The notes under the pieces are model-generated. The model was not told the origin of the DNA, did no database searches, and saw nothing but the letters and a program-made list of their open reading frames with translations. Positions 37,601 through 60,074 of a stretch of 64,000 nt of DNA are shown piece by piece (the first letter of the stretch is position 1; each line of letters opens with the position of its first letter). The stretch is from Siphonodentalium dalli (taxonomy: Eukaryota; Mollusca; Scaphopoda; Gadilida; Siphonodentaliidae). Both the position numbers and the translations under genes were made by a program. Location: the NCBI GenBank assembly GCA_032622095.1, contig CP136061.1:682001-746000 (forward strand), written 5' to 3'.

Positions 37601-37832
37601 AATTTCCATTAACCGACAAATGAAAATAAAAATTTCTCTTCAACTGGATAGTAATTCATATGATTTTATGTAAATTTATCTGTATAACAAGATGTTTTGC
37701 ACCAGCACTATGATTAAACTATAAGCGATAACTCTTGTTTAAACAAAAATGTTTGATGACAGATTTACCATAAAGCACAACACGTTATAGAACTTGTCAT
37801 CAAACCATTTGATTATAACTTATTAAACTTAA

Positions 37833-37973: not shown

Positions 37974-38224
37974 TTAATCAAAACAAGAGTTATTTCTTAA
38001 TTATTTTATATATGACCACCCACCAACAATGTGGATTTAGACATCTTATTCTTACCTGAATGTTAATTTAATATTTCATTCAGGTTGGTGTAAACATACT
38101 TTATTATTCCAAATAAAATATACATATATAATTTGTAACAACAGTTTATTAGCTATTGGCGGAATAAGTGGATTTGGCGTAAAGCAAAGGATACTGAATT
38201 AAAGCGACATCCATATTTTTTCAG

Positions 38225-38359
38225 ATTACATTTCGACAGGATGTCAGGTGACGGGATTAGATGCATTCTGGGAGTATGGAATCTCTGTTACCACGAGCGT
38301 TGGGAGTCCGCCGACGACTGTTGATACTACTGAACTAGTCTTTAGAACAGAAGAAGGAG
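38225..38359 (+). CDS. Exon: FN3 domain 5, C-terminal part
   Basis: This exon is 135 bases, phase 1 to phase 1. It completes domain 5 with STGCQVTGLDAFWEYGISV (E-F turn and F strand) and a G strand ending TELVFRTEEG. The cysteine here could pair with the one in the preceding exon's loop. Acceptor ATATTTTTTCAG; donor GTAATT at 38360. The junction codon with 32031 is GAT. Confidence 0.9.
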
Positions 38360-40245
38360 GTAATTTATGTTGCAAATTCAATTTCAGTTACTCAGGCCAA
38401 AAGTTTTCTGATAAACCTGTTGTATGCTGTTTTTAGTTTAATTTTTTATTTCTATGTTACACGCCAACGAAGCATTACATCTCTGTATCGGCTATTTCTG
38501 GCTCCAATATTAGTTGCCCATGGCTATTACCCTAACGGATGTATGTGAATAAAAAGGTTTTACACGTGGCGTTTATTAAGCAAGTTATTTTTTTGTGTGT
38601 TTCTTTATATTTTTGTTTTAGTTTCTGTTTTCTCCATAGTTGTCCTCACAAAATAAGTCATTGTTCTCATTTCTATTCAAATTAACTTGCTGATTTTGAT
38701 AGTGATAACATGACGTTTCCTAATTTCGTGCAATGACACATGTTTTATGAGTTACCAGGAATTATACAAATTACAATACTACCTTTTCATTGTCTGCTAT
38801 GAGGTTTTAGAATTTATTCCACACCCATCTACGCGAGGCACATGTATTCAACAGAATATGAGCCATTGAATACATATTATTGTGTACCTCTAGTGGAATA
38901 CAAGCCGGAACTATTCTTATTGACGTTGTCGCCAAGAAAGATGACGTACATTACGTCAGCGATCCGATTCGGGTGATGCCCAGAAAATTACTGGTTATTC
39001 ATCAGAGAGTAAATCACAATAAAGGTAGTCATAGTTTCAATGAAGGTGGCAGTAATGGATTTAATTTATCTGACACAACAGATGTAGAATAAATACAGAA
39101 CACAACTTGCATCATAATCTCAAATCTTTTATCGAACTCGTTGCGGACGGCGCATAGTTACATTATATATCCTTGCGCCATCCCCAACTCATTCGATAAA
39201 AGATTCTTAATTAAGATGCGTGTTGTGTTCTGTCTATATTTTACATCAATGACCATGCACCGTGGATGAATAATTGGCAAAACCAATAAATTTATTTGTT
39301 TTGTTTCTGAGAATCAAAAAAACAATTGTCGTTTTTTTTGTGTGCATCGGAACCAATGCTTTTTTCGAACATCATGTTCATAATAATAATAATGTGGATT
39401 CTCGGCAGATTTTTCACCCTGTACCGGGTGCACTGCAGTGAACATAGATGTGTCCTGCACTGGGTTCACGGCAGTGGACATAGACTTGTCCTGTACCGGG
39501 TTCACTGCAGTTCGCTATTTATTGATCATATACAACTAGCCAATGTGAGGCTTGATATGTGTTCAACTTTGGAATGATTGCCTATAATGGCTCCTATCTC
39601 ACCAAGAAGATTACATTATTTTAAGCCTTAACTATGAATGACAGCAATGGAAGTTCTGTGGCAGCTACCGCTGGTCCTGCCTCCGGTTTCCAGGTTCATT
39701 CCTTCTCTGCACATGCCGACTTCTTGCCATAGCTACACCAATGTCGGTGGTCCATGTAGCTGGCAAGCCACGTTGCTCTCGACACATTGCCTGCCATCAC
39801 AGTTCAATGTTTCACCTGCCACTGCCTCCATTCCAGGGGAATTTACCATACAGGCTTCGACCTGTCAGGCTACCATCTCTCCAGATTTTGGGGCGGGCCA
39901 GAATCCCTGACACCAGATATATATAGTCACCGCTACAACTAGGGGGGGGGGGGGCCTCTAGTTTACTTTTACTCTTCTTTATTATTCTATTCATGATAGC
40001 AAACAATTAACTACTTCCCAAGTATAGCTACAGTGTAATTGACACTCATTATTCTGGGGAATTGCGACCTAGTACCCTTTTATTTAAAAAGTGATGCTAT
40101 CAGTCTGCTGTAGGTAATACAGCGATTCGATTCGACTAACCGTGCTCAATGCTTTATCGGACAAGGATAGTGGTACAAGAATTAGTCCACTAGTCACATC
40201 TTGAACCCTGGGTGTTATGCGACTAACAATTTTCAATGCTTTTAG
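38360..40245. other. Intron with inverted repeat and GC-richer block
   Basis: Bases 39078-39243 form an imperfect inverted repeat (GATGTAGAATAAATACAGAACACAAC / GTTGTGTTCTGTCTATATTTTACATC, and TCTTTTATCGAA / TTCGATAAAAGA). Bases 39640-39900 are GC-richer, with short overlapping open frames but no recognisable domain; this is possibly a transposon ORF relic. A 13-base G run is at 39942-39954. Confidence 0.5.
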
Positions 40246-40382
40246 TTCCAGAAGGAGTTCAGCAATTGAAAAATAGTATGCCAGGGAGTTTTATTCAGCG
40301 TAAAATTACCTGGATGGAGCCCGGACTGAGGAACCGAAATGCGAACATCACAGAATATCAAATCGATATCACCGGTCACAAG
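40246..40382 (+). CDS. Exon: FN3 domain 6, N-terminal part
   Basis: This exon is 137 bases, phase 1 to phase 0, the same phase pattern as the first half of FN3-4. It reads VPEGVQQLKNSMPG, then IQRKITWMEPGLRNRN with the B-strand tryptophan, then ITEYQIDITGHK (C strand). Acceptor CAATGCTTTTAG is weak in pyrimidines; donor GTATGT at 40383 is strong. The completing phase-0 exon was not found before the gap. The last about 50 bases and the donor are the source of the array that follows. Confidence 0.85.
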
Positions 40383-41440
40383 GTATGTGAGGTCAGATTA
40401 AATGTACCCGATAATGTAATAGCATTCATAGAAGTGAAGAAATGTGAACATCACAGAATATCAAATCGATTATAGTGGTTATAAGGTATGATATATCAGA
40501 TTAAATGTACCCATAATCTAATAATATTGATAGAAGAACCGAAATGTGAACATCACCGAATATCAAATCGATTACAGTGGTTACAAGGTATGTGATATCA
40601 GATTAAATGTACCCATAATGTATTAACATTGATAGAAGAACCGAAATGTGAACATCACCGAATATCAAATCGATTACAGTGGTTACAAGGTATGTGCTAT
40701 CAGATTAAATGTACCCATAATGTAATAACATTGATAGAAGAACCGAAATGTGAACATCACATAATATCAAATCAATTACACTGGTTAAAAGGTAGGTGAT
40801 ATCAGATTAAATGTACCCATAATGTAATAATATTGATAGAAGAACCGAAATGTGAACATCACATAATATCAAATCGATTACAGTGGTTACAAGGTATGTG
40901 AGATATCAGATTAAATGTACCCATAATGTATTAACATTGATAGAAGTAAAGAAATGCGAATTTCACTAAATAATAACTGAACTACACAGGTCATAAGGTA
41001 TTAAACATCGGATTAAATGGACCTGTGACGAAATAACATCGATGGAGGAACCGAAATGTGAACGTCAGAGAATATAAACTCCATTACACTGGTCATAAGG
41101 TATGGAGCATCAGATTAAATGTACCCGTAACCTGTTTACACTGGTCATAAGGTAGGTGATATCAGATTAAATGTACCCGTAACCTGTTTACACTGGTCAT
41201 AAGGTATGGAGCATCATATTAAATGCACCCGTAACCTGTTTACACTGGTCATAAGGTATGGAGCATCAGGTTAAATGTAACCGTAACCTGTTTACACTGG
41301 TCATAAGGTATGGAGCATCAGGTTAAATGTACCCCTAACATGTTTACACTGGTCATAAGGTATGGAGCATCAGGTTAATTGCACCCCTAACATGTTTACA
41401 CTGGTCATAAGGTATGGAGCATCAGATTAAATGTAAATAA
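40383..41440 (+). repeat. Array of exon-end plus 5' splice site copies
   Basis: Seven units of about 102 bases carry GAAATGTGAACATCAC, AATATCAAATCGATTAC and TGGTTACAAGGTATGTG, then ATCAGATTAAATGTACCC. They are followed by about six shorter units of about 53 bases with ACTGGTCATAAGGTATGGAG and the same ATTAAATGTACCC. Every unit keeps an AAG followed by GTATGT, GTAGGT, GTATGG or similar, that is, a usable-looking donor. In most long units the exon-derived part stays open in the original frame (ITEYQID-like). Confidence 0.9.
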
Positions 41441-42064
41441 TTAGATCGGACCCAAGATCTCATATGTTTTTGATTACTTTCAAATGAAGTTGTAACATAT
41501 TTTGAATTATTGTCAGCAAAAGTCCAATTTTATAAATATTTTCACCCAAAATTAGTAGATAATAAAGAGCCTTTTGTGATCGTTTTCCACATTTTACTTA
41601 TGGACGATTATGTGGATCTTTAAGATGCTAATGATTTTGATTCTTTATTTTCTATTGCCTGGTATGCAGAAATGTGCTCAGGAACTTCTGAACAATTTTG
41701 GTGTCAAACGGACCATGGTGCTTTAACGTAATAACAGTGACAAATCAATGTAACAGGTTTATTTATTTTACAATGGTCTCAACCAATGAAATTTTGTTAT
41801 TGGAAAACATCAACATTAAATATAAGAAATAGAGGATCTACAATGAGTCCTCAGTTTATAGCGGAATTTACAAAACGAGTCCACTAAATTAGGTCTGGAC
41901 CGAGCCTTTGCCGAGGTCCAGACCTAATTTACTGGACAAGTTTTGTAAATTCGGCTATTAACTTGGGACGAGTTGTAGATTCGATTTATTACATGATCCA
42001 AAACCTCGACAAAACATACTTAAATCAAAAATGGGACGCAAAACTAACATCAACTTCTATTAGG
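41441..42064. other. Non-coding stretch with foldback element
   Basis: Bases 41834-41982 form an imperfect hairpin (GGAATTTACAAAACGAGTCC ... GACAAGTTTTGTAAATTC, with GGTCTGGACC / GGTCCAGACC near the centre). It resembles the hairpin at 58788-58910. No exon is supported. Confidence 0.55.
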
Positions 42065-42072
42065 CATGCGAT

Positions 42073-43220
42073 CAGGCCTCAGCCTAGGGGTCCAGAACAG
42101 GGAGACCTGAAGTCTCCCTCCAGGAAATTTAGGGAGACTTCAGGAAATTTAGGGAGACTTCAGGGTGGGGAGACTACCAAAAATTGACAATTTTCAAATA
42201 ACGCTTTATTTTATAACATCTGTCATCTGACAATAAAAAATTTAAAAAGATAAAATAACAAATAAAAAAAAAAAATTTGACTTTATCTGAAATTAGCTTA
42301 ATTAATTGTTATTATTATACATTTAAAAAAATTTTGAAATGTTTTGTGTAGCTACCATTTAAGCAAGACAATTATCAAGTTACAGTAATAGTTACTTTTT
42401 TAACTAAATGAAAGTAGTATTATTTCCAAGACTGCAGCTTGGAAGATACGTTTGTACAGTCTGATGAATCATGATGCATGTAACTTTTTAAGTTTAATTT
42501 GGTCACGGCTGTAATGTGGGTGTCCGCTAAAATAAACAATAAGGACTAACTAACAAAGGAGTTGCAAAAGCTTTTATTAATTAATGGCCTCCCTTAATTA
42601 ATGCCAACATCACTGGTATAATCCGATTAAAGCAATAAACTTGACATTATTTTATTTACGGAAGTCGGTCTCTTCAAAAAGTCCGACGCGGTCTCTTCAA
42701 AAAGTCCGACGCGTTACCGAAACGAACTTCCGAAGCGCCTGGTACATACTCTGATAATGTCGTAATTGTTTTATATCTGAAAAGCGGGACGGCGGTCTTT
42801 TAAGTTAATTAAAACATTTATTTGTGACACTCACGATGGTCAGTAACAACACAGATGCGAACATCTCATCGTGTTTTCAGCGTGTCAAAACATTCGTGAT
42901 TAACATTCATTACCGCAAAGGGAACAAAGGCGACGGAATTTAATAACAACACAATTTTAAAACAATAGGTCATATTTTATTTTTTTATTTTAAACACTTG
43001 GGTCTTTGGCTCTGCATCGTCTGTTTCTTTTTGGGATGGCCGCCACAATTCATCTATATACGGACATGTCCGGAAAAAAAACTAGAAAAAAAATTAAGAA
43101 AAAAAAACATTCCCCCTAAAATTGAAGGCGACTTCGATTTCGCCTTAGAGCGACGATAGGGCGAAGTCAGCGACAGTAAGGCGACAATCTCGCCCGAGTC
43201 GCCTTGTGAGCTGAGGCCTG
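42073..43220. mobile_element. hAT-like element, 1148 bp, exact 8-bp TSD
   Basis: Left end CAGGCCTCAGCC, right end GAGCTGAGGCCTG, bounded by the exact octamer CATGCGAT (42065-42072 and 43221-43228). Subterminal GGGAGACTTCAGG repeats sit on the left and GGCGACTT..CGCC repeats on the right. An internal GGGTGTCCGCTAAAAT segment is shared with the longer element that starts at 43928. No coding capacity. Confidence 0.85.
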
Positions 43221-43228
43221 CATGCGAT

Positions 43229-43927
43229 GACGTTTCACACAACTCTGCGGTATTTGCCCGCGCAAAGAAATAGTCCCAGATAAATAAAGACTCTTTGGCG
43301 TATTTAATGGCATATATTTAATGACATAACTTTTCAAATCTTCATTTATTATAGTTTGTTGAAATTATATTGGAAGCCATAGTATTTTGAGACGTAGAGT
43401 ACGGAATGTAAAGAAACCACAAACCGGAAGTCAAAGGTCACCTGGCACTATTTCCTGTTATTAAACGAACATTTAATATCACAATTTATAGAATGGGTTT
43501 ATTGAATGGAATAAAGGTAGGATCATGTAATAAATAGGTTTATTTATTTCTCCATGTGATGTTTTTATAGACTTTTTAACAGTGCCTTGGGTCATTTTAA
43601 AATATTCTTTTTTTTATGATTTAATCAATCAATCATAAATATGTCATTCATTTTGATAAAATGATAAAATTATATTCAGTCTAGCATTTGTCATGTAAGT
43701 TGGTTGTATATCTGCATTGGTACAAACCCTAAGGTACTGTAAAAGACTTTAAATTTGTTGGTATAAATTTTTGTGGTTCAAACATTTACAATTTTTTAGT
43801 GTGTTCGTAAATGTGTGGGTCCGCCGGCACTAACTGTCACCTCCAAAGACCCAATAATAACAAACAAGTCCAACTAATAGAAGTGTAGCCACCTCGGCAT
43901 GTGGTCTGAAATTGCATCAGCATCCAC
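43229..43927. other. Spacer between two hAT elements, nothing recognised
   Basis: AT-rich, with an ATCAATCAATCAT simple tract at about 43623 that could be the tail of a SINE. No exon is supported. Confidence 0.35.
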
Positions 43928-45605
43928 CAGGGCCCATGCTAGGGATTGAAAACAGGGAGAGATGAAGTCTCCCTCTGCAGATTTTAGGGAGACTTCAACC
44001 AAAACAGGGAGACTTATAAAAAAAAGATCAATTTTCAAAAATTGCTTTATTTATAATAAATTTTCAAAAATTGCTTTATTTATAACATTAATAAATAAGA
44101 CAAAAACAACAAGATAAAACATGTTTAGCAAGAAACAGCACAAGTATAGCACAAGTATAGATCGACAATCTTAACTAAATTTATTACTTTTATTTTTGTA
44201 AACTGTTGACTGTTTTTAAACAGCAATCTGAAGAAAAATTAATTGTTGAAAATTTGAATAAATGCCATTGAAAGCAAGAAAATTAAAAAAGTTACAGTAG
44301 TTGTTCGAAATAGCTTATGTATTGACATACAAAATTGTATGATTCCGTCATTGTAGCATTAACACTTCCTAGACTGGAAGATATATTTGTAATGTATCAT
44401 TCTGGTATATATATACACGATAATGAGTTAATGAGGAAAATATGCTTGTATTACTAAATTTACTCCCTAGACTGGAAGATATATTAATATCATTATAGTA
44501 ACTACTGTATTTACTCTCTAGACTGTAGTATTCTAGTCTAACTTCCTATACTGGAAGATCTGTTTGTTGTTGTTCGTCTTTGGTAATTTTCGCAATGATG
44601 AGTTTCTGCATTGGCATTTGTTTGGCGAGCTGGCTTTTTGTCACTGCTGTAAGATGGGTGTCCGCTAAAATGAACGATAAGGACTAATCAAGGAGTTGTA
44701 AAGGCTATTTTTATTTCTTAAGCTTTAAATTAATGAATAGGCATGCCAACGTCGACTGTATAATCCGATTAAAGCCATCAATTGGATACAATAGAAATTA
44801 ATGCGTTCTAAACAAAGACCTGTAGAACTTACATATACCATATACCCGTCAGGTAATAGCTGCATTGTGTACATGCAATTAATTTACGAAGTTAAAACGA
44901 AAACACACGTGTTACGCGCGGTATTTTAATAGAGTTTTAATTTCGTGGTAAAATCCGATAAATGTGACAAGTAGGATAGCTGTGTTACGATAGAAATTTA
45001 TGCGTTCTTAACACATACCAATAGAGCTTATAATATACCGAATCAGGTTCTTTCAATACCTGCATTGTTACTAAGTGCATGCAATGAATTTACGAAGTTA
45101 AATCGAAAACGCACGTGTTACGCGCGGTATTTTAATAGATAGAGTTATCTTTCGTAGATATAATTTTAATTTCGAGTTGAACAAAATAAAAGAGTTATCC
45201 TTCTTCAATAATCGATACCAAACTGGTAACAATTTTGTCAGATTTGATTCGGCATTCGTTATGGATAATCGAAGTGTACTTACATAAACCGTGTCGAGTG
45301 TGATTTGTAGTTTTAGCAGGAACAGCATGCCCTCGAGCGTATGCCGTTTCCAGCTTTGCAGCGCGACACACAGAACAATGCCACTTATCATCGTCGTCTT
45401 TGACATACCATTCAAAGGCAGTCTGCGCGAGTTTTTTACAATGTTTTTTACTTGGCGATTCTGATTTACATTCGGTATAGAATTTCCATTTAGAAGCCGG
45501 AGAACTCTTTAACCAAGATGAAAGCGCCATCTCGAATGAGAAACTGTTATGAAATGTCTATCGTGACTCGAGCATATATATGCGTGTTGGCTTACAACAA
45601 CAGTT
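43928..45605. mobile_element. Larger hAT-family element cut by the assembly gap
   Basis: Left end CAGGGCCCATGCTAGGG, then AACAGGGAGAGATGAAGTC and GGGAGACTTCAAC, as in the element at 42073. The internal GGGTGTCCGCTAAAATGAAC segment is also shared. It carries a minus-strand zinc-finger ORF (45195-45530) and may be the coding-type relative of the short element. The right end is lost in the N run. Confidence 0.6.
45195..45530 (-). CDS. TTF/BED-like zinc-finger N-terminus of a hAT-type transposase
   Basis: This frame of 111 codons starts MALSSWLKSSPASKW and contains KWHCSVCRAAKLE followed by ARGHAVPAKTTNHTRH. That gives a C-x2-C...H-x-H type finger, as found at the start of hAT-type transposases and of the C17orf113-like genes related to them. 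The frame stops after VSIIEEG, so either an intron or a frameshift follows. The catalytic core is not visible. Its position inside an element with hAT-like ends supports a transposon origin; domestication cannot be excluded. Confidence 0.55.
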   Translation of the reverse strand: MALSSWLKSSPASKWKFYTECKSESPSKKHCKKLAQTAFEWYVKDDDDKWHCSVCRAAKLETAYARGHAVPAKTTNHTRHGLCKYTSIIHNECRIKSDKIVTSLVSIIEEG

Positions 45606-45705
45606 NNNNNNNNNNNNNNNNNNNNNNNNNNNNNNNNNNNNNNNNNNNNNNNNNNNNNNNNNNNNNNNNNNNNNNNNNNNNNNNNNNNNNNNNNNNNNNN
45701 NNNNN
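45606..45705. other. Assembly gap (100 N)
   Basis: Exactly 100 unspecified bases, the usual placeholder for a gap of unknown size. The sequence to its right starts in the middle of a MITE whose complete version is at 60075-60455. Confidence 0.99.
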
Positions 45706-45897
45706 ATAAGAGAATGCATTGGCCTAAAAAAAAATCTTTTTTAACACTTTTTACCATTTTTTCTTACATTCTTTAACAATTTTATAATTTTTAATGTGTT
45801 AAGCCAATGCATTCTCTTATATATGCGAGGCGACCTATGGTCGACTCGCATATATAAGAGAATGCATTGGCACATGGCCGTTCTGTTGGGTAAAGGG
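45706..45897. mobile_element. piggyBac-like MITE, left part lost in gap
   Basis: Right two thirds of the element seen complete at 60075-60455, with an identical ending (GGCCGTTCTGTTGGGTAAAGGG). Confidence 0.8.
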
Positions 45898-45932
45898 TCA
45901 AAGACCGATTTCGGGGCTGAAAAATTTCCAGC

Positions 45933-46064
45933 AAGTCGTGTATGCTCTGATCGATGGAATAATCGTTTAAACGCCAAACGACCTAGAAACACCTATTTGG
46001 AAACACATGTCATACGTCAATCAACCGAGATGATGGCCAAAATGGTGCATGCAGTTAAAAACTA
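45933..46064 (+). pseudogene. Possible terminal coding exon, unrecognised
   Basis: After an AAATTTCCAG acceptor-like site there is an open frame SRVCSDRWNNRLNAKRPRN then TYLETHVIRQSTEMMAKMV, ending in TAA at 46062-46064. The charged, low-hydrophobicity composition looks coding rather than random, but I do not recognise a family and no partner exon was identified. An identical copy is at 60491-60622. It could equally be chance. Confidence 0.25.
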
Positions 46065-46128
46065 AATATTTCATGTATATTATATAGTTTATTTAATTCA
46101 GGCTCAAATGGCCCATATGATAGAAATA

Positions 46129-46400
46129 TCAATTATATGTAATACAGAATGTCTTTCCAATGTTTGAAAAGATAAGATTCTTTCTTATCAACATAGGAAC
46201 AGAGCTCACAGCATTCCTGGCGTACATCCCACTTGCGCTACATCTCCATTCATATGCCATAAACTTCCTATAGGCATTGTTATAACATACAATTATGGGT
46301 GAAATTTTCCCACAAAGTGCAGCTGCAAAGTACAACAATATAATGATGAAATATACGATGAAAAAGATGGCGTTTTACATCAAATGAGCACTTGTTAAAA
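46129..46400 (-). pseudogene. Hydrophobic ORF, possible GPCR TM7 fragment
   Basis: The minus strand reads a hydrophobic stretch FFIVYFIIILLYFAAALCGK, then ISPIIVCYNNAYRKFMAYEW. This resembles the end of helix 7 and helix 8 of rhodopsin-like receptors, with SPIIV in place of the NPxxY motif. No acceptor or upstream helices were found, and a stop precedes the stretch, so if real it is a fragment. It is repeated exactly at 60687-60958. Confidence 0.3.
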
Positions 46401-46474
46401 AATTCATGTGGATATTGGAACGGGAACAAATTATTCTATATTGCCTCATAATATCATCATCAAACGAACGCGAT

Positions 46475-46738
46475 TTGATTGATTGATTTTATTTGGCACA
46501 GGGTACCAGGGATAACACAAGAAAGTCTAGCACGCGCCGTTAGGGAGAGTCGTTTCTTGAAGTATCCATCCAGGCACACTATCTGACTCAGACAGGCACA
46601 CTCATCCAGTTTTGCGATTTTTTTTCGATCCACCGGGATTCGAACTGACGGCGCGCACCTGGTCGTTCGTAGAGCAATTGTCTGTCACTGGTGCAGAAGG
46701 GTTATTTCACTTTTCCGATTGCGCTAACGGAGCTCTCT
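46475..46738 (-). mobile_element. tRNA-derived SINE
   Basis: On the minus strand there is an A-box-like TTAGCGCAATCGG near 46726-46714 and a B-box AGTTCGAATCCC near 46643-46632. They are about 70 bases apart, too far for a plain tRNA. A unique body follows, ending in CCAAATAAAATCAATCAATC. Internal promoter plus a short repeated tail is the pattern of a tRNA-derived SINE. An identical copy is at 61033-61296. Confidence 0.65.
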
Positions 46739-47104
46739 ATAATGATGTTGACGGCTAAATATGGGGAATTTACTTGTACGTATGTGTCAGTAATTATTAA
46801 ATTGAGTACCGGTATATTACTGACCCCCCCCCCCCCGCATTAATAGTTACTTGTTATGTAAATTGTTTATCCTCATGCATTGCAACGTCACGTCAAATGC
46901 GTTGCATGTATACCTTGGTTAATAAACTGCTTTACTCGTATTTAAATGAGGGGAAAAATAGTTGGACTCAAGTTTATCTAAACTACAGTCCATAGGTAAA
47001 ACATAGGTTCGAACGGAAGCAATTGATTTTTAAATTGATTTCAGTTTTGTCATCATTCTGCTTTTCTAATAAATTGGTTATTGTAAACGTCATCCAATTA
47101 GAAA

Positions 47105-47260
47105 ATTATAAGTGGGTTATAAGTGGCACTTTTTGATACATTGTGCGCTATAACTGGGCGAGGCACATTTTGTACATTGTGCGTTATAAGTGAGCGTGGC
47201 ACTTTTTGGTACAGTGTGCGTAATAAGTGGGCGTTTCCAAAGTCGGCAATGACAAAAAAC
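47105..47260. repeat. Inverted outlying units of the CCACGCCCAC array
   Basis: GTGGCACTTTTTGGTACAGTGTGCG and TAAGTGGGCG here are the complement of the repeat unit at 47520-49070. The array therefore has a few units in opposite orientation at its left side, as if it grew from one end of an inverted-repeat element. Confidence 0.75.
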
Positions 47261-47514
47261 AGTTTTCAGCGCCTTGCTTCGCTCGGACTGCGTAATGAAG
47301 ATGCGCAAACATTGACTCTCAAAGTAACCCGACCAACGGAGAGATAGCGTGCGGATGGGTTCAGACTTTTGGAAAATTCCTCCGTAAATGGCTGTATTTG
47401 AGTGCGGCATCACTAAGCTATTTTTGGTATCGTATGTTGGCGGACGACAAAAATGTTTTTTCAGCGCCTCGCTTCGCTCGGACTATGCAGTGTAGATGCG
47501 CAAACTTTGATCGC

Positions 47515-49070
47515 ACTTTCAGCGCACACTGTACCAAAAAGTTTACCAAAAAGTGCCACGCCCACTTTCAGCGCACGCTGTACCAAAAATTGTACCAAAA
47601 AGTGTACAAAAAAGTGACACCCACTTTTAGCGCACACTACCAAAAAGTGTACCAAAAAGTGCCACGCCCACTTATACCGTACGCTGTACAAAAAATAGTA
47701 CCAAAAAGTGCCACGCCCACTTTCAGCGCACACTGTACCAAAAGTGTACTTTCAGCGCACACTGTACCAAAAGTGTACCAAAAAGCGTACCAAAAAGTGC
47801 CACACCCACTTTTAGCGCATACTGTACCAAAAAGTGTACAAAAAAGCGTACCAAAAACTGCCACGCCCACTTTCAGCGCACGCTGTACCAAAAAGTGTAA
47901 CAAAAAGTGACACCCACTTTTAGCGCACACTGTACCAAAAAGTGTACCAAAAAGTACCACGCCCACTTTTAGCGTACGCTGTACCAAAAAGTGCCACGCC
48001 CACTTTCAGAGCGAACTGTTCCAAAAAGTGTACCAAAAAGTGCCACGCCCACTTTTAGCGCACACTGTACCAAAAAGTGTACCAAAAAGTACCACGCCCA
48101 CTTTTAGCCTACGCTGTACCAAAAAGTGCCACGCCCACTTTCAGAGCGAACTGTACCAAAAAGTGTACCAAAAAGTGCCACGCCCACTTTCCGCGCACAC
48201 TGTACCAAAAAGTGTACCAAAAAGTGTACCAAAAAGTACCACGCCCACTTTTAGCGTACGCTGTACCAAAAAGTGCCACGCCCACTTTCAGAGCGAACTG
48301 TACCAAAAAGTGTACAAAAAAGTGCCACGCCCACTTTTAGCGCACACTGTACCAAAAAGTGTAGCAAAAAGTACCACGCCCACTTTTAGCGTACGCTGTA
48401 CCAAAAAGTGCCACGCCCACTTTCAGAGCGAACTGTACCAAAAAGTGTACCAAAAAGTACCATGCCCACTTTTAGCGTACGCTGTACCAAAAAGTGCCAC
48501 GCCCACTTTCAGAGCGAACTGTACCAAAAAGTGTACCAAAAAGTGTAGCAAAAAGTACCACGCCCACTTTTAGCGTACGCTGTACCAAAAAGTGCCACGC
48601 CCACTTTCAGAGCGAACTGTACCAAAAAGTGTACCAAAAAGTACCATGCCCACTTTTAGCGTACGCTGTACCAAAAAGTGCCACGCCCACTTTCAGAGCG
48701 AACTGTACCAAAAAGTGTACCAAAAAGTGCCACGCCCACTTTTAGCGCACACTGTACCAAAAATTACCACGCCCACTTTTAACGTACGCTGTACCAAAAA
48801 GTACCACGCCCACTTTCAGAGCGAACTGTACCAAAAAGTGTACCAAAAAGTACCATGCCCACTTTTAGCGTACGCTGTACCAAAAAGTGCCACGCTCACT
48901 TTCAGCGCACACTGTACCAAAAAGTGTACCAAAAAGTGCCACGCCCACTTTCAGCGCACACTGTACCAAAAAGTGTACAAAAAAGCGTACCAAAAAGTGC
49001 CACGCCCACTTTCAGCGCACACTGTACCAAAAAGTGTACAAAAAAGCGTACCAAAAAGTGCCACGCCCAC
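47515..49070. repeat. 37/49-bp minisatellite (GTGCCACGCCCAC)
   Basis: Units GTGCCACGCCCACTTTCAG / AGCGAACTGTACCAAAAA (37 bases) alternate with longer ones carrying one or two extra AGTGTACCAAAA dodecamers (49 or more bases). Roughly 35 copies. Open frames across it are repeats of TKKCHAHFQ or VPKSATPTF with no biological pattern. Confidence 0.95.
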
Positions 49071-50222
49071 CATACTGATTCAATGCTACTAACTGTTATG
49101 GACCATACTGATTCAATGCTACTAACTGTTATGGACCATACTGATTCAATGCTACTACCTGTTATGGACCATACTGATTCAATGCTACTAACTGTTATGT
49201 ACCATACTGATTCAATGCTACTAACTGTTATGTACCATACTGATTCAATGCTACTAACTGTTATGGACCATACTGATTCAATGCTACTACCTGTTATGGA
49301 CCATACTGATTCAATGCTACTAACTGTTATGTACCATACTGATTCAATGCTACTAACTGTTATGTACCATACTGATTCAATGCTACTAACTGTTATGGAC
49401 CATACTGATTCAATGCTACTAACTGTTATGTACCATACTGATTCAATGCTACTAACTGTTATGTACCATACTGATTCAATGCATTTACTAACTGTTATGT
49501 ACAATACTGATTCATTGCATTTACTAACTGTTATGTACCATACTGATTCAATGCTACTAACTGTTATGGACCATACTGATTCAATGCTACTAACTGTTAT
49601 GTACCATACTGATTCAATGCTACTAACTGTTATGTACCATACTGATTCAATGCTACTAACTGTTATGGACCATACTGATTCAATGCTACTAACTGTTATG
49701 TACCATACTGATTCAATGCTACTAACTGTTATGTACCATACTGATTCAATGCATTTACTAACTGTTATGTACCATACTGATTCAATGCTACTAACTGTTA
49801 TGTACCATACTGATTCAATGCTACTACCTGTTATGGACCATACTGATTCAATGCGACTACCTGTTATGTACCATACTGATTCAATGCTACTAACTGTTAT
49901 GTACCATACTGATTCAATGCTACTAACTGTTATGGACCATACTGATTCAATGCTACTAACTGTTATGTACCATACTGATTCAATGCTACTAACTGTTATG
50001 TACCATACTGATTCAATGCTACTAACTGTTATGGACCATACTGATTCAATGCTACTAACTGTTATGGACCATACTGATTCAATGCTACTACCTGTTATGG
50101 ACCATACTGATTCAATACTACTAACTGTTATGTACCATACTGATTCAATGCTACTAACTGTTATGTACCATACTGATTCAATGCATTTACTAACTGTTAT
50201 GTACAATACTGATTCAATGCAT
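49071..50222. repeat. 33-bp minisatellite carrying TACTAAC
   Basis: The unit CATACTGATTCAATGC / TACTAACTGTTATGGAC (or GTAC) is repeated about 35 times. Most units contain TACTAAC; a minority have TACTACC, and a few have an expanded CATTTACTAAC. No AG dinucleotide occurs on the + strand anywhere in the array. It ends 14 bases before the next exon. Confidence 0.95.
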
Positions 50223-50236
50223 TTGATGTTCACCAG

Positions 50237-50411
50237 ATTGGAGTACAAGTATTGTAAGCTGATTGATGAGACGAGTGGTAAGGGTGAACTACCACCCTCC
50301 GAAACGTGTGCCTTTGATGACGATGAAGACGAAGAGGCCGACCAAGTTGAATTCAAAAGTAATAAGAGTGGGATGCTATTTAGTAAGCTCAAAAACAAGA
50401 TTTCAAAAAAG
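50237..50411 (+). CDS. Exon: acidic/basic hydrophilic tail
   Basis: This exon is 175 bases, phase 2 to phase 0. It encodes LEYKYCKLIDETSGKGELPP, then a strongly acidic DDDEDEEAD run, then SNKSGMLFSKLKNKISKK. Acceptor GATGTTCACCAG is pyrimidine-poor but lies downstream of a TACTAAC at 50188-50194. Donor GTTTGT at 50412. Codon structure and non-repetitive composition separate it from the satellite open frame that runs into it. It could be a cytoplasmic tail of the FN3 protein, since strand and position fit, but the linking exon(s) with a phase-2 donor are missing. Confidence 0.6.
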
Positions 50412-50943
50412 GTTTGTGTCACGCATAATTCTCCATCTATTTATATAAAAAAAATAGCAGGATCTGTCTGTCCGTCTGTCTATTTGTTCACGATTTTTCT
50501 TGCAGACCCTGGACTGATTTCAACCAAAGTTGTTGTTGTGACTTGAGGCAGATATTATAACGGCATTAGTTTTTCAAAATTTTAATTTAAAAAACAGTTT
50601 GTTTTATTAAAGCTACATGACTTTTGATTTTTTTCTGATGTCGAAATTGGTCGATAAATACTTTCTATGAGCATTATATGTCCCAGAATGACATATTGAA
50701 GTCATAAAAAATACAACTTTGAACAAGATGTTTTGGTCCCAAACAAAAAAACAGCCATGTGCAGGGCATGGGACAGAAAAGAGCGTTCAGTGTTATTCTA
50801 TTCCTGATTTGACCTAAACACTTCGGAAAATTAAAATCAGTCTTTATACCGGTTACTTTTTACTCCCTGAGTGGTAATAATATATAAATTCTGTCTTTTT
50901 ACTACCTGAGTGGTAATAATATATAAATTCTGTCTTTTTACAG
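50412..50943. other. Intron between tail exons
   Basis: Contains a two-copy 40-base tandem repeat just before the acceptor (50855-50940, CCTGAGTGGTAATAATATAT). No other feature. Confidence 0.5.
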
Positions 50944-50991
50944 GATGATTTTGATAACATGAAGCTGGACGAGAAAATGCCATTGACGTAA
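50944..50991 (+). CDS. Terminal exon: C-terminus with stop
   Basis: Phase 0 acceptor TGTCTTTTTACAG, then 15 codons DDFDNMKLDEKMPLT and TAA (50989-50991). It joins in frame to the exon ending at 50411, giving ...KISKK followed by DDFDN. The short, charged C-terminus fits an intracellular tail. Only this phase match and the good acceptor support it. Confidence 0.6.
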   Translation, partial: DDFDNMKLDEKMPLT

Positions 50992-51044
50992 ACAGCTGTG
51001 CTGACATAATCGTATGATTATCAATGTAATCTGACATAATTGTT

Positions 51045-51386
51045 GACTCATTAGGTAGTGCAGACGCTCATCACCCATGACTCATTAGGTAGTGCAGACG
51101 CTCATCACCCATGACTCATTAGGTAGTGCAGACGCTCATCACCCATGACTCATTAGGTAGTGCAGACGCTCATCACCCATGACTCATTAGGTAGTGCAGA
51201 CGCTCATCACCCATGACTCATTAGGTAGTGCAGACGCTCATCACCCATGACTCATTAGGTAGTGCAGACGCTCATCACCCATGACTCATTAGGTAGTGCA
51301 GACGCTCATCACCCATGACTCATTAGGTAGTGCAGACGCTCATCACCCATGACTCATTAGGTAGAGCAGACGCTCATCACCCATGA
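51045..51386. repeat. 34-bp tandem repeat, ten copies (possible 3' UTR)
   Basis: The unit GACTCATTAGGTAGTGCAG / ACGCTCATCACCCAT is almost invariant; the last copy has GTAGAG. It starts 53 bases after the stop codon, so if the tail exon is real this array is in the 3' UTR. Confidence 0.95.
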
Positions 51387-51430
51387 CATATTTCCTCATA
51401 ATTTTTTTGAACATATGATATTGTTGCCTG

Positions 51431-51436
51431 AATAAA
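51431..51436 (+). terminator. Candidate polyadenylation signal
   Basis: AATAAA in AT-rich sequence 440 bases after the TAA at 50989. It is the first such hexamer that I noticed downstream of the stop. Weak evidence by itself. Confidence 0.3.
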
Positions 51437-51479
51437 TAATATAATATAGTTATCATATTTATATTGTACAGAAATGACA

Positions 51480-51600
51480 TTTGCAGAATGTGTCTGACAT
51501 TTGAAGAATGAGGTCCCCAAAGGGTGATTTTAATGACGCTATCCCGCATAGTTGGCTAGCATCACCAAATTCACCATCTGGCTACCTCATTCTATATCCC
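51480..51600. mobile_element. Foldback repeat (GAATGAGGTCCCC family), copy 1
   Basis: GTCTGACATTTGAAGAATGAGG / CCCCAAAGGGTGATTTTAATG is followed by a complementary arm (CATCACCAAATTCACCATCTGG, CTCATTCT). Other copies are at 52605-52740, 52895-53000 and 56989-57315, with a fragment at 58430-58520. Confidence 0.6.
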
Positions 51601-51675
51601 ATAATTTGCAGAAGATAAATTGCATAATCGAGGTGACTAATGGGTGAACATCACCAACCTCAACTTGGGAACTTC

Positions 51676-51930
51676 AATCATAATAGATACTCATGTCTCC
51701 CTCTAGGCTGGTTCCCCGCCTGGTATAATGATCTACTGATGTAATCTCCAGTCTATGTAATCATAATAGATACTCATGTCTCCCTCTAGGCTGGTTCCCC
51801 ACCTGGTGTAATGATCTACTGATGTAATCTCCAGTCTATGTAATCATAATAGATACTCATGTCTCCCTCTAGACTGGTTCCCCACCTGGTGTAATGATCT
51901 ACTGATGTAATCTCCAGTCTATGTAATAGA
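51676..51930. repeat. 84-bp tandem repeat, three copies
   Basis: The unit contains AATCATAATAGATACTCATG, TCTCCCTCTAGGCTGGTTCC and GTAATGATCTACTGATGTAA. Only a few base changes between copies. Confidence 0.9.
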
Positions 51931-52162
51931 TATACTCATGTCAGTCTCATGTGTAATCACCATTATAATCACTCACCAGTTAGAGCAGAATCTCATTTAC
52001 TATCTTTGCTTTGGGGCTGCGACGATACAAAATTTTATATGATATGCATCGTGATATAAATGGGTCACAATGAGGTGATGTGTATTGTGGTGCATTGATG
52101 AAATGTTGCAGCCCTTTGTTCATGCTTTGTAGCGGCATATTAACACATTACCACCATTCTAC

Positions 52163-52374
52163 AGTAATGCTCTAAATAATCGACTCCTTAACCACAGCAG
52201 AATTATGGGTAATTTTTCAGGATTTAGTCGGAAATATGGCTTGTTGCCATTCATCGGAAAGCTCTCAGTGAGAGCTTTCCAATGAATGGCAACAAGCCAT
52301 ATTTCCGACTAAATCCTGAAAAGTTACCTAAAATTCTGCTGTGGTTAAGGAGTTGATTATTTAGAGCATTACTG
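52163..52374. mobile_element. Tc1/mariner-like foldback MITE, copy 2
   Basis: Same palindrome as 1299-1511 (CAGTAATGCTCTAAATAATC ... ATTATTTAGAGCATTACTG), TA on each side, near-perfect arms. Confidence 0.85.
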
Positions 52375-52604
52375 TATATCACATCCCCATTTACTTATCA
52401 AACTACTATCGCAGAAACACTGCTATAGATTACGTGGTGATATTGTACATTCCGTAATATTGACATTGATCATATTCCAAGCCATGAATGTCAATCGACC
52501 ATAATAACACATGTCTCTTTGTCTCAAACTTTTAAATGAATTGCCATGACTTTGTTTCATATACATCAAGGAAACTATAGGGAACTATAGAAGCCTGGAA
52601 ATAC

Positions 52605-53000
52605 TGTGTCTGACATTTTCAGAATGAGGTCCCCAGACGGTGAGATTAGTGATGCTACCCCACAAAGGGAACTAGCATCGCCAAATTCACCCTCTGGAGA
52701 CCTCTTTCTGCTTAGACCTCATCTTCTGTGAAGTATCTACAGTCTCAAATTAACATTGTTTTAGTTACTTTTTCCCTTCTGTTCAGTTTCTATATCCCAT
52801 AATTTGCAGAAGATAAAATGTTTAATCGATGTGACTAATGGTGAACATCACAAATGTCAGCTGGGGAACATCAGGTCTCCCATAGCAGTTGAGGCCTGAG
52901 CAGAATGAGGTTCCCTATGGATGAATTTGGTGACATTCACCATGTGTGTGTGGTAGCATTACTATATTCACAATCCTGGGACCTTATTCTGCAAATGACA
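52605..53000. mobile_element. Foldback repeats (GAATGAGGTCCCC family), copies 2-3
   Basis: Two inverted-repeat units: GAATGAGGTCCCCAGACGG ... CCTCTGGAGACCTC at 52620-52715, and AGAATGAGGTTCCCTATGG ... at 52898-52992. They are linked by a shared spacer (CTCATCTTCTGTGAAGTATC, AGTCTCAAATTAACATTG). Confidence 0.55.
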
Positions 53001-53210
53001 GACAGAGTACTTCCAGACTTGGAACTATATTGTGAACGGTGCAAGGATATGAGATATATGAGTGAAATGTGATTGCACCATTCACAATGAATCTCATGCT
53101 TACGACATTCCATGTTTGTTACAAACCTTGTATCATATATATCCAGCACATGAATATGACTCAGATGTATATTTTAATGTTTGCTGTTTTGTACTGCTGA
53201 AACCTCTAAC

Positions 53211-54043
53211 TTAGGCCAATGGGGGAATTGTCACAAGGCACCGATCACATTTGTAGCCAGATTTTAAAATCGATCACAAATGTAGCCAGCTTTTCACAGG
53301 CAATCACATTCGTAGCTAGCTTTTCAAATTCCATCGTTTTATATGCAATATATGACATTGCGTAAGTTATATGACTAAAATTTGCGATGTCATGCTTCAG
53401 AACTGGGTTCATTTTTTGGTTGAAAGCCCTATGTATATAAATGATTAAATAATATTTAATGTATTTCTTCCATTATAAATGTATGTTGTTTTTCATTCAT
53501 CTACTCAAGAATATGATTAGCCAAACAATTAGTCTCGTTCATTAACCCTTTACCCAACAGAACGGCCCTGTGCCTCGCATATATAAGAGAATGCATTGGC
53601 TTAACACATATTAAAAATGATAAAATTGTCAAAGAATGTAGAAAAATATTATAAAAATTGTTTAAAAAATGTAAGAAAAAATTATAAAATTGTTAAAGAA
53701 TGTAAGAAAAAATGGTAAAAAGTGTTATGGTCGACTCGCATATATAAGAGAATGCATTGGCACAGGGCATAACTGTAACCATCACAATGTGGTCAATGAA
53801 CCGGTTCCAATGATATCCATATTTGTATGGTGTTATTGAGACAGACCGAAGATATTTTAGGCTGTTGAAGCTTTATTTGGGCGTTTTTGGCCGTTTTGTT
53901 GGGTAAAGGGTTAAACCCACATGAAGATGAAAAGCTGGCAACGAATGTGATCGCCCTTGAAAAGCTAACTACATTTGTGTTCAATTTTAAAAGCTGGATA
54001 CGAATGTGATCGATGCCTTGTGACAATGACCCCATCGGCCTAA
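53211..54043. mobile_element. TIR element with nested piggyBac-like MITE
   Basis: The outer ends TTAGGCCAATGGGG and CCCATCGGCCTAA, followed inward by TTGTCACAAGGCA / TGCCTTGTGACAA and several GATCACATTTGTAGCCAG-type repeats, are inverted copies. The element at 53546-53910 is inserted in its centre. Confidence 0.7.
53546..53910. mobile_element. piggyBac-like MITE, CCCTTTACCCAACA ends
   Basis: 365 bases bounded by TTAA (53542-53545 and 53911-53914), with ends CCCTTTACCCAACAGAACGG and CCGTTTTGTTGGGTAAAGGG. Inside is the GCATATATAAGAGAATGCATTGG hairpin core shared with the CCCTTTCATGA elements, and short AGAAAAAATTATAAAATTGTT repeats. Confidence 0.85.
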
Positions 54044-54272
54044 CTTTGATGCCCTAAATTTTCTGGTTTGCTCTGTTTATCCTGACAATGTCCACAATAA
54101 TAATGTCAATTGGCTGAACATGAAATGTACCTGTAACTTATCTTGTCTTCCTGTAATTATTTCCGTTGATGACAAAAGTTATAAATATAGTTAGGTTTCA
54201 TTTGTTTATTTAAATGATGCTCAATTTATTTACAAATGCTTTTTAATCCTTTTTAACTTTCAATTTTTGCAA

Positions 54273-54437
54273 ATGCATTCTCTTATATATGCGAGTCTCC
54301 CACAGGAGCTTCATACATATATAAGAGAATACATTGACCTAACAATATTTACCTATGGTCGACTCACATATATAATAGAATGCACAGGCACAGGATCTTT
54401 AATGCTGCACCAGCGCAGTTCCCATCATGAAATTAAT
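54273..54437. mobile_element. Degenerate piggyBac-like MITE fragment
   Basis: Three arms of the TATATAAGAGAATGCATTGGC core followed by GCTGCACCAGCGCAGTTCCC and ATCATGAAATTAA, a decayed right end of the CCCTTTCATGA type. Confidence 0.6.
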
Positions 54438-56172
54438 TTAGACCAAGTAGGGTAATAGTGCTTAGTTAAGAACTGCTTTTAGAAGTGAATTTTACTTGGC
54501 TAAATAGATAAAAAAAAAAACTATGTTCTCAGGTGCCTTCCTATCACATCAAGAGGCCTCATAAAACATGTTATTTACAAATTTATGCAGATTTCAAAAT
54601 CTGATGTTCCATTTTTCCACATTTTGATAATTAGATTGTTTATAATGACTATAAAGCACTGGGTGAGGGTTTTATAAAACTCTGTATATCTGCTAATTTC
54701 TAAAATTCTTGAGAAATAGTAAAAGTCCGGCCTCCCTTATTCAGTTTTCCATGTTTAATTATCTGTGAACAGATATTTATTTCTATGACCTAATTTTGTT
54801 TTCTAGCATAATATAACTTGTTAAAGTGAAAGTGCAATACAGCTGAAGGCCAGTGTTTTGTTAAACAAGACGTGAATTGTGTCACTGTACGGAAATTTGT
54901 TAATTCTTCTGAATACTTAATGGATTCTCCCATTCAGTGATAAAAGAGTACACTGGAATGGTCCATTCTTCATTTGTAGGGGTGTTTAGATACTATAATC
55001 AGACGTCAATCGGAGAAACATTCTTTTTGGATTCATTTGTAATGGTGTTCAGATAATAAGGCTCGCTGTTGAACTTATAAACTGAACATCATACAAATGA
55101 ATTATTAGGAATCGAGTAATTATGCATCATCACATATTTAGTTATCAGCCCGTTGAATGATAAATGTAACTAATTTAACAAGTTTGATAGATGATTGTGT
55201 GAATTGTGTTCTATAGTTATTCCACATCTCAGCACCAAGGCCATTATTAAAGTGATGTGAAACATTCTGGTAGGTTGATAAAATAAAAATGGAGAATAAT
55301 CTTACTCAAAGTAGTTATTATTACAAATATTATATCCAAATTGACAACACATGCCGTCATTCTTATATATTAATTGAATGCAATGAATCTCGGTGGCCAA
55401 ATCATTTTTGTTAGCTTATCGCCGATAGTTGCGTCCCAAATAGAGAAGTAAATATTTACAATTGAGCGTGGTTCAGACGATGTTTCTATGCAGTTGTACG
55501 GTCGATTTGCTTGAGATTTTCGCCGATGTGAGTAGAATGCTACATTCCCACAGTTGACATAGCGCCTGAATACTAAATTATCAGTTCCACGCACCCGAGC
55601 AAGTCCATAATATATCTTTAATGTGTATTTTGTATTATGTATTATGTTTCACATGTGAGAAATTGAAATGTTTATTTCATGCTGATGATTTAGTATGCTA
55701 AATACTTATTGGACATTGAAAGATGTATTCAGGGTTCCAGGGCAAGTTTTACGATTAAATTCTAGTGTTTATAAGTTAGCATGTGTGGAATTGGAATGCC
55801 ACCTCAAAAACTAACCATTAATTTCATATAGTTTTGTTGATCTGGATGGACAATAAAAGTTAGCACCTTGATTTTTCAACAACTATATGACAATTTTACA
55901 CTCGAGTCATGAACTCTTTTCATTATAATTACCATGTTGTTTGCATCGTTCATAGAACACATGAGTGTATTTTGCACTAATCCATGGCTCAAATTCATTA
56001 ATTTGTTGCATATATTCGGTTGAGTATAAAAGGAAATGGTACCATAAATGGCCAGTGTACAGTACCCTTTTAACAAGCTATTTGTGTGTGGATCTTCAAA
56101 TTCAGGTATCACCTCCCAGAAAAAACAAACATCCAGAGCAACACATAAACCCATATCGCTAAATTGATCATA
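54438..56172. other. Intergenic stretch, nothing recognised
   Basis: AT-rich. A block around 55235-55300 (AAAGTGATGTGAAACATTCTGGTAGG) recurs at 57440-57510, so part is repetitive. No coding exon is supported; the short frames lack any domain. Confidence 0.4.
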
Positions 56173-56385
56173 CAGTAATGCCCTAAATAATCAGACCCCT
56201 TAACCACAGCAGAATTATGGGTAACTTTTCAGGATTTGGTCGGAAATATGAATTGTTGCATTCATCAGAAAGCTCTCAGTGAGAGCTTTCCGATGAATGG
56301 CAACAAGACATATTTCCAACTAAATCCTGAAAAATTACCCATAATTCTGCTGTGGTTAAGGAGTCGATTATTTAGTTCATTACTG
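56173..56385. mobile_element. Tc1/mariner-like foldback MITE, copy 3
   Basis: CAGTAATGCCCTAAATAATC ... TTTAGTTCATTACTG with TA on both sides; slightly more diverged arms than copies 1 and 2. Confidence 0.85.
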
Positions 56386-56582
56386 TATGTTGTAACTCTC
56401 GAATCGTGAGTATATCTTTAACAGATGTGTATTAAGTTATGTTGCAGGATACATCTTTAACAGGTGTGTAATAAGTTATGTTGCATGATACTTTTCTGTA
56501 AATCAAAGCTAACATTTTGTGATCCTTCGAATATTGTTATAAAACGGTCACACATCAATCATGTTATTTTAGATTGCTAAAT

Positions 56583-56752
56583 ATAAATTAATACACAACT
56601 ATTGTTTATATGAACGGTTCTAAATGTCAAATTAATAGACAACTATTCTTTATATGTATGATTCTAAATGTCAAATTAATAGACAACTATTCTTTATATG
56701 TATGGTTCTAAATGTCAAATTAATAGACAACTATTCTTTATATGTATGGTTC
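56583..56752. repeat. 43-bp tandem repeat, about four copies
   Basis: The unit TCTAAATGTCAAATTAATAG / ACAACTATTCTTTATATGTATGG; the first copy is diverged. Confidence 0.85.
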
Positions 56753-56988
56753 TTTTTCCAATTTTCCACATTCCAAAATTTATTTTCTCGTTTCATATTT
56801 GTTTATATAAAACACAAACTTACTTTCTTATTTTCTTAGATTAACACGAACATTCCATTTATTATACTATCTTTATTTATTACATATTTCTTATTTCATT
56901 CCGAGATGTAAACAGATGGCGAGATGTACGAAGCTTGTGTATTATATGATACGATTTTATTTCGTAGTAACACAAGCATGCCTGGTGT

Positions 56989-57315
56989 GTCTGACATCTG
57001 CAGAATGAGGTCCCCAGAGGGTAAATTTAGTGATGCTACCCTGCATGGTGGGCTAGCATAACCAAATTCACCCTCTGGGGACCTCATTCTGCTTTGGCCT
57101 CATCTTCTGGGAAGTATCTACAGTCTCAAATTAACATTGTTTTTAGTTACTTTCTCCATTCAACTGGGGAACTTCAATTTGATCCTAGGCCTCCCATAGC
57201 AGTTAACGCCTAAGCAGAATGAGGTCCCCAGTGGGTAAATTTGGTGATGTTAACCCTCTATGCAGGATAGCTTCACTAAATTCACCCTCTAGGGACCTCA
57301 TTCTACAATTGACAG
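56989..57315. mobile_element. Foldback repeat (GAATGAGGTCCCC family), copy 4
   Basis: GTGTCTGACATCTGCAGAATG / AGGTCCCCAGAGGGTAAATTT and its complement at 57062-57090, then a second inverted pair at 57215-57305. Confidence 0.65.
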
Positions 57316-57514
57316 ACACACTATGTGCAGGCTTGAACACGAGCTATCTGTTACAAGTAATGTCATCTCAAACAATTTATGTATAGAATGTTCTGTAATA
57401 TTGTGATCTGAAGTACTGAACTTTGTGTTGTTATATTAAAGTGATGTGAAACACTCCGGTAGGGTGATCAAATATAAAAGGAGAATAACCTTGTTCAAAG
57501 TAGTAATTTTTATA

Positions 57515-57905
57515 CGCCCTTTTGAAAAAAAAGGCCGTATTATAGTATTGGTCTGTCCGTCCGGGCGGGCGTCCGGTGCGTCCGTTAACCTGTTGTCCGG
57601 ATGATAACTTTAGTTAGAGTGAACCGATTTCAATAAAATTTGGTATGTGGGTTTATTAGCCGAAAAGTAAGTTCAAGTTCGAATTTGGGTTCCGCCCGCC
57701 AATTTTCACCGGAGTTATGCCCCTTATTTGACGTTTTTTGACTTAGAAAATCCTTGAAATTTGTTGTCCGGATGATAACTTTAGTATAGTTTATCGGAAT
57801 GAATCCAAATTTGGTATATTACTTTCTCCCACCAAAACACAGGTCAAGTTCGAACTTGGGTTCTGTCCGACCATTTTTGGCAGAGTTATGCCCCTTTTTT
57901 GATAA
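57515..57905. repeat. Dispersed repeat family B, third copy
   Basis: Opens with TACGCCCTTTTGAAAAAAAAGG and a GTCTGTCCGTCCGGGCGGGC run, then GTCCGGATGATAACTTTAG subunits nearly identical to 2697-2960. The high identity points to a fairly recent copy. Confidence 0.75.
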
Positions 57906-58334
57906 ACTATGATACCTGTGGTATTGTTGTGAATATTTATTGTTAATAAACTAATTTTGATCACTGAAGCAGCGTTCGATGTAATACTGATGTAACTAGA
58001 TGATACTGGGGACCCTTGAAGCGGACAGTGAATCTCTAAGAATAATGTCTCCAATAATACTTGTGTTCACATACAAAATTAGGTTTCCTGAGTGAAGTAA
58101 TATCCAGGAATTTTCTGTTTCTATGTTTTGTTTCTACAGTTTCATTTCTATATTTTAAGATGTTTATATTATTTCTGTTGTATAAATTGTGTTTTTCATG
58201 TGATAATACAGGTCAGATGTACAAGTTCAATGTCTACTTATTTCATTTGAATACTAACCACCTATGGATAAAGCTGATCAAAATATGTTTTAAGTCAGTC
58301 ACTGTCTGTTTTCTTGAGGAAATCCCTGGCGTAA

Positions 58335-58440
58335 CCCTTTCATGACTGGAGCTTCCTGAAAGTTTGTGAAAACCCTGTGCCAGTGCATTCTCTGATATAT
58401 GCGAGTCTCCCATAGGATTATGCATATTAATCTTCTGCAA
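58335..58440. mobile_element. piggyBac-like MITE fragment
   Basis: GTAACCCTTTCATGACTGGAGC then GTGCCAGTGCATTCTCTGATAT; the right half is replaced by a piece of the GAATGAGGTCCCC family. Confidence 0.6.
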
Positions 58441-58787
58441 ACAAGGGGATATAGAAACTGAGCAGAAGTAACTAAAAACAATGTTAAATTGAGACTAAAG
58501 ATACTATCCCAGAAGACGAGGCAAATAAGATATTCTGAAATATGTAGACATTATCTGTGATCCATACAGTTTAGAGATGACTCAGATAAGGTATAGTGTG
58601 ACCTGTATGATTGTTTACTTATGACATGCTTCATAAATTATACATTTTATACTCTACTTCATACCCTTTCTTTCTCTAACACTGCCTGATTATTTTATTT
58701 ACAGTAAAATAATTCAATTTACATTGTGTTTGACTTAGTTATTCCCTGACACCCAGTTCTGACATATATTGCCAAAAAATCACATGA

Positions 58788-58910
58788 GTTTCTATTTTAT
58801 ACGGAATTTATCAACCGAGTTGACAAAATTCGATTCGAGCCGAGGTTTACCGAGGCTCAAATAGAATTTAGTGGACGAGGTTGATAAATTACGCATAAAA
58901 TAGGACGAGT
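58788..58910. mobile_element. Foldback element (GGAATTTATCAACCGAG)
   Basis: Imperfect hairpin, TTTTATACGGAATTTATCAACC ... GGTTGATAAATTACGCATAAAA, with TTCGAGCCGAGG / CCGAGGCTCAA at the centre. Same type as 41834-41982. Confidence 0.6.
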
Positions 58911-60070: not shown

Positions 60071-60074
60071 TTAA

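Follow-up and report, generated by a model that had tools for sequence, protein, structure and literature searches.

In the window (the whole 64,000-base stretch of Siphonodentalium dalli DNA that was analysed), the intron upstream of the penultimate coding exon of an ELAPOR1-like gene ends in a minisatellite whose units carry branch-site words. We consider it probable that this intronic minisatellite originated in the branch-site region of the very intron it occupies, with the last one or two units used in splicing and the upstream copies carried along as passengers. The observation itself is true, and it is most likely an ordinary one, one more minisatellite lying next to a splice acceptor. 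The features of the locus are as follows.

47514-49068, + strand: neighbouring minisatellite cluster on the upstream side, in the same intron but built of another unit (TRF)
49059-50234, + strand: AG-free stretch of 1176 bases (sequence)
49069-50224, + strand: minisatellite of 33- and 36-bp units, 35 in all if the partial one at the end is counted (TRF and unit parsing)
50188-50194, + strand: last TACTAAC, candidate branch A at 50193 (position -44) (sequence)
50207-50213, + strand: last TACTGAT, candidate branch A at 50212 (-25), the best-placed branch-site candidate (sequence)
50225-50236, + strand: all of the 3' splice site that lies outside the array, GATGTTCACCAG, with the AG at 50235-50236 (sequence)
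50237-50411, + strand: penultimate coding exon, with which the cytoplasmic tail of the ELAPOR1-like protein starts (ELAPOR1 similarity; donor by consensus)
50412-50943, + strand: last intron, with a 39-bp x 2.2 tandem duplication at its 3' end (50856-50941) (ELAPOR1 alignment crosses the junction)
50944-50991, + strand: last coding exon, with a TAA stop codon at its end (ELAPOR1 similarity)

TRF analysis described the array as a 33-bp minisatellite (49069-50220, 34.5 copies, 95% matches), a unit length that falls within the minisatellite range of ~10-100 bp. Combined with unit parsing, it agreed with the count of about 35 units of 33 bases given by the sequence-only reading, namely 30 units of 33 bp, four of 36 bp with three extra bases and one terminal partial unit, all 35 of which start with ATACTGATTCA. 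The order of unit types along the array, AABCCABCCACCDEACCACCFCBGCACCAABHCDI, has blocks that recur, ACCACC among them, a pattern expected from duplication of several units at a time. The terminal partial unit runs into the acceptor, matching the 36-bp variant over 19 bases, to 50224, and has the GCATTT variant in common with the 36-bp units. The array had been said to reach to about 15 bases from the acceptor; its closeness was borne out, and the actual gap of 12 bases is slightly smaller. The array intron is seen only from its 3' side, its downstream exon being supported by homology and its upstream exon not found. GG is absent on the + strand over 1620 bases (47480-49100) in a strongly strand-asymmetric minisatellite cluster.

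The acceptor was analysed by comparison with ELAPOR1. The spliced peptide of the last two exons matched ELAPOR1 PDB chains in their C-terminal tail with an E value of 1.9e-4 (query residues 1-67 to chain residues 929-995), and the alignment spanned the last-intron junction. With a 105-aa query that was array-coded at its front, the match ran from residue 46 onward (E 1.8e-3). Residue 46 lies one codon before the acceptor-spanning codon, showing that the similarity starts with the exon and not in the array. Thus 50236/50237, proposed earlier as the acceptor of the tail exon, is very probably a true acceptor, judged from a match of modest score with one protein behind it.

Exons for the upstream ELAPOR ectodomain and transmembrane segment were not found in Pfam and PDB scans with long queries, and a contig gap lies ~4.5 kb upstream. 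These scans were insensitive, since one long query held 54 in-frame tail-exon codons and did not report ELAPOR1, which the short query found. PDB scans of the three + frames at 35400-50400 and 50300-64000 gave only matches with E values of 0.2 or worse. A search for phase-2 donors preceded by a transmembrane stretch gave no candidate at strict settings; relaxed settings kept 9 of 1764, one of which completes a K/R codon (24566, on the other contig), and this was judged unconvincing. The Pfam scans covered all three + frames apart from 9901-10499 and the gap, and the - strand at 39000-48900 only. They yielded fn3 matches near 13.7 and 14.4 kb, with further ones that fell short of the curated cut-off at about 23.1 and 26.9 kb, and otherwise sub-threshold matches only, among them a 2OG-FeII_Oxy match located in the array, which was taken as spurious. 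The fn3 exons are located on the contig preceding the gap, and may belong to a different gene from that of the tail exon. In viral_contigs, the 29-base unit core had no exact match, and the tail-peptide pattern matched 84 stretches, none encoding a relative.

Most units of the array were said to carry TACTAAC, and the heptamer is present in 29 of the 34 complete units (29 occurrences in the region). The other five have TACTACC (four units) or GACTACC (one unit), the sixth base, which is the branch adenosine of TACTAAC, being C in each. The coordinates given for the last TACTAAC were also correct, its branch A at 50193 lying 43 bases from the final G of the intron. A second good branch-site word, TACTGAT, had been overlooked and is kept in all 35 units. 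The terminal unit therefore holds TACTGAT at -25 and the preceding unit TACTAAC at -44, with 12 bases between the array and the exon; a branch A at -25 is at an ordinary branchpoint-to-acceptor distance. The number of TACTAAC words on both strands of the window (41, against 8.98 +/- 3.25 in shuffles) is far beyond chance, and is made up of 29 in the array region, nine in an exact copy and three elsewhere (two on the + strand, one on the - strand). Outside the array, TACTRAY occurs 14 times in 59,085 bases, a chance of ~1.3% per 60 bases.

On this basis, the array would have grown by repeated tandem duplication of the intron's own branch-site region, and because that region itself was duplicated, the branch-site words would have multiplied as a by-product. 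For splicing of the tail exon, the branch site would then come from the final unit or the one before it, with TACTGAT at -25 as the most likely choice, and the acceptor could work from the last unit alone. The simplest reading is that the last array units supply the working branch site. The upstream copies would be redundant passengers in a presumably neutral array, tolerated because the unit happens to be without AG. As the first AG downstream is the same for every unit, the same mRNA would result whichever copy was used, and only efficiency or lariat form could differ. The terminal unit is the evidence that points to a branch-site origin; alternatively, the array may have expanded towards the acceptor from further upstream.

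The sequence-only reading had also reported that the + strand contains no AG from 49059 to 50234, and this was confirmed, the flanking AGs starting at 49057 and 50235. Elsewhere on the + strand, the distance from one AG to the next does not exceed 185. To be set beside this is the frequency with which a unit of such length would give an AG-free array: 8805 of 47,020 array-free 33-mers of the window (18.7%) are AG-free on the + strand as a tandem unit, the fraction being 17.4% when only this region was excluded and 19.1% when the array was kept in the sample. Among nine array units compared, the 33-bp unit is the only one lacking AG on the + strand, and all nine have AG on the - strand; outside this comparison stand arrays of less than ~5 copies and at least two with more copies, those at 12791 and 53631, whose consensus units contain AG. 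A distant-branchpoint acceptor is recognized by the lack of AG between the distant branch site and the acceptor, which is seen here over 1176 bases, and by the lack of a good candidate in the conventional place, where this acceptor has both TACTGAT (-25) and TACTAAC (-44). Thus the formal properties of an extended AG-exclusion zone that had been proposed are present (the AG-free run, the many heptamers and a probable acceptor), whereas a functional zone with many used branchpoints, or splicing that depends on array length, is unsupported, since an AG-free unit is expected in nearly one case in five, the units give no sign that the branch adenosine is conserved and the word at -25 could suffice.

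The units were further compared for traces of selection. Fourteen of the 99 possible single-base changes in the unit create an AG, and none of the six different substitutions inferred among units does so, an outcome with P ~0.40 by chance. Two of the six fall inside the two heptamers (~2.5 expected), one of them being the loss of the TACTAAC branch A in 5/34 units. Thus the units, as far as their sequences can tell, show no sign of selection, in line with the earlier caution that selection was not proven; six substitutions are too few to reveal weak selection.

We then compared the tail-exon acceptor with eight others in the window, four at fn3-match exons, one at the last exon of the ELAPOR1-like gene and three chosen by eye (at 11.9, 17.3 and 40.2 kb, from reading frame and consensus only). 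The tail-exon acceptor has the fewest pyrimidines of the nine at -20 to -4 (0.59, compared with 0.65-0.82), and its longest pyrimidine run is 3, compared with 5-13 at the others. When branch words were scored at -15 to -55 against the general branch-site consensus, it matched at 7/7 positions at both -25 and -44, and the others at 5-6. With the fewest pyrimidines but the best branch words, the tail-exon acceptor could depend more heavily on a strong branch site than its neighbours do, which counts against the passenger explanation.

The pyrimidine-poor acceptor, the 29 TACTAAC and 35 TACTGAT words and the AG-free stretch are what would be expected if U2 snRNP engaged many of up to 64 branch words, all scanning to the AG at 50235-50236, so as to give redundancy or length-dependent splicing. 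We regard this as unlikely. The two branch words nearest the exon, at -25 and -44, could be enough, the TACTAAC branch A is lost in 5/34 units with no sign of selection, and the folding of the last 300 bases (49937-50236) is not unusual (z -0.76). In addition, of the human AG-free zones given in the passages cited from PMC1431707, the longest is 438, compared with 1176 here, and splicing is described in the abstract of PMC9508853 as weakened by longer spacing. A more far-reaching form, in which dozens of equivalent branchpoints stand at 33-base steps over 1.2 kb and the splicing rate or intron retention of the ELAPOR1-like gene is set by how many units there are in a minisatellite that arose from the branch site itself, seems improbable too.

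Known systems provide partial parallels. In the cited passages of Gooding et al. 2006 (PMC1431707), human exon IDB1079466.8106 has an AG-exclusion zone of 369 that comes from a repetitive element without AG; its only good branch site is at -17, and the large zone was judged unrelated to splicing. As in that exon, an AG-less repeat upstream of the acceptor inflates the AG-free zone here, with a good branch site near the exon; the differences are that here the branch-site words are part of the repeat, a tandem array, and that the zone measures 1176 bases. The distant-branchpoint exons given in the same passages, PTB exon 11 (zone 381) and nPTB (zone 438), resemble the present case in having a long AG-free stretch before the acceptor and strong branch heptamers upstream. 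However, many distant-branchpoint exons are described there as having no obvious branch site near the exon, whereas the present acceptor has candidates at -25 and -44. Among the literature matches listed, within the library and terms covered, there was none for a minisatellite of branch sites at an acceptor.

Tandem duplication is frequent in the surroundings, 27 merged arrays covering 12,141 of 60,263 bases (~20% of the stretch examined). The 39-bp duplication in the last intron copies that intron's own branch and pyrimidine region and ends 2 bases from the intron end; its unit contains AG, and thus arrays at acceptors are not always AG-free, one of the two minisatellites observed in the window to end no more than 50 bases from an acceptor being so. 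The arrays at 40331-41435 (102 bp, ~8 copies; 52 bp, ~7 copies) contain the 3' end of a likely fn3 exon with its donor, giving 14 donor-like words AAGGTA[TG], the first of which is the proposed real donor. Together with the 39-bp duplication, they indicate that tandem duplication at intron ends occurred more than once here. Junctions lying within 20 bases outside an array edge numbered two, compared with 0.30 expected (P ~0.04, in a test chosen after the first ones had been seen), a hint of more than random placement. Among 17 junctions there was no enrichment either within 20 bases of arrays (three seen, 3.7 expected) or inside arrays (one seen, 3.4 expected).

The region 40246-41435 comprises the likely fn3 exon mentioned above, recognized by eye and with no Pfam match, and the arrays into which its 3' end and 5' splice site have been copied. 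Other arrays were also observed in the window. A 34-bp x 10 array (51044-51387, 99% matches) begins ~50 bases past the stop codon and probably lies in the 3' UTR. Two long array regions are on the fn3-exon contig, one at 32471-34924 (38 bp, ~64 copies) and one at 35708-37596 (36 bp, ~40 copies, with more after a break).

The bases 45706-49442 are identical letter for letter with 60264-64000 (3737 bases, offset 14,558), including the first 11 array units. Position 45706 is the first base after a gap of 100 Ns (45606-45705), where a new contig begins. The second copy begins in the right arm of a 27-bp inverted repeat, its array part starts at 63627 and it is cut by the end of the window. This exact duplicate may be a recent duplication, a circular overlap or an assembly artefact. 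Given that the contig starts at 45706 and contains an exact repeat of itself 14,558 bases further on, the length or position of the array could be wrong in the assembly, and the gap and the start of the 3737-bp duplicate inside the inverted-repeat arm fit such an error. We think this improbable, as the gap is the only N run in the window, so that the array and the tail exon are on one contig, and the unit pattern of the array is varied.

Multiple copies of UACUAAC within one RNA are also known from Gomafu/MIAT, which according to passages of PMC3116199 has 3-7 copies in an exon of a nuclear lncRNA, compared with 29 in an intron here, and Table 1 of that paper gives eight copies for a rare mouse Gfap transcript with intron sequence. 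The tandem UACUAAC of Gomafu is described there as binding SF1 better than degenerate sites and as delaying splicing in vitro. By analogy with what was proposed for Gomafu/MIAT, the excised intron or the unspliced RNA, with its 29 copies, might act as an SF1 decoy, which we consider very unlikely here: nothing points to accumulation of the array intron RNA. An excised lariat is, moreover, short-lived, which also counts against a decoy.

A protein-coding array was rejected as scarcely credible: the tail-exon frame is open through the array and beyond (48783-50546, 587 codons) and the 33- and 36-bp units preserve the frame, but the ELAPOR1 match ends at the acceptor, all four variable columns of the 33-bp units alter a residue, and an 11-codon frame is open by chance about six times in 10. 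A structured RNA was likewise set aside, with no fold signal in 49937-50236 and no Rfam match in the window at gathering thresholds.

If the upstream copies were used, near-identical branch sites would lie in 33-base increments ahead of one and the same AG, and the choice of branchpoint and the scanning for AG could be tested on this intron as it stands; if dozens of branchpoints did serve this acceptor, it would be a natural ruler of the distance over which the spliceosome scans from branchpoint to AG. If they are unused, which is more likely, the locus shows how a tandem repeat can give an acceptor the formal appearance of using a distant branchpoint when it does not, and would be a caution for AG-exclusion-zone scans of repeat-rich animal genomes.
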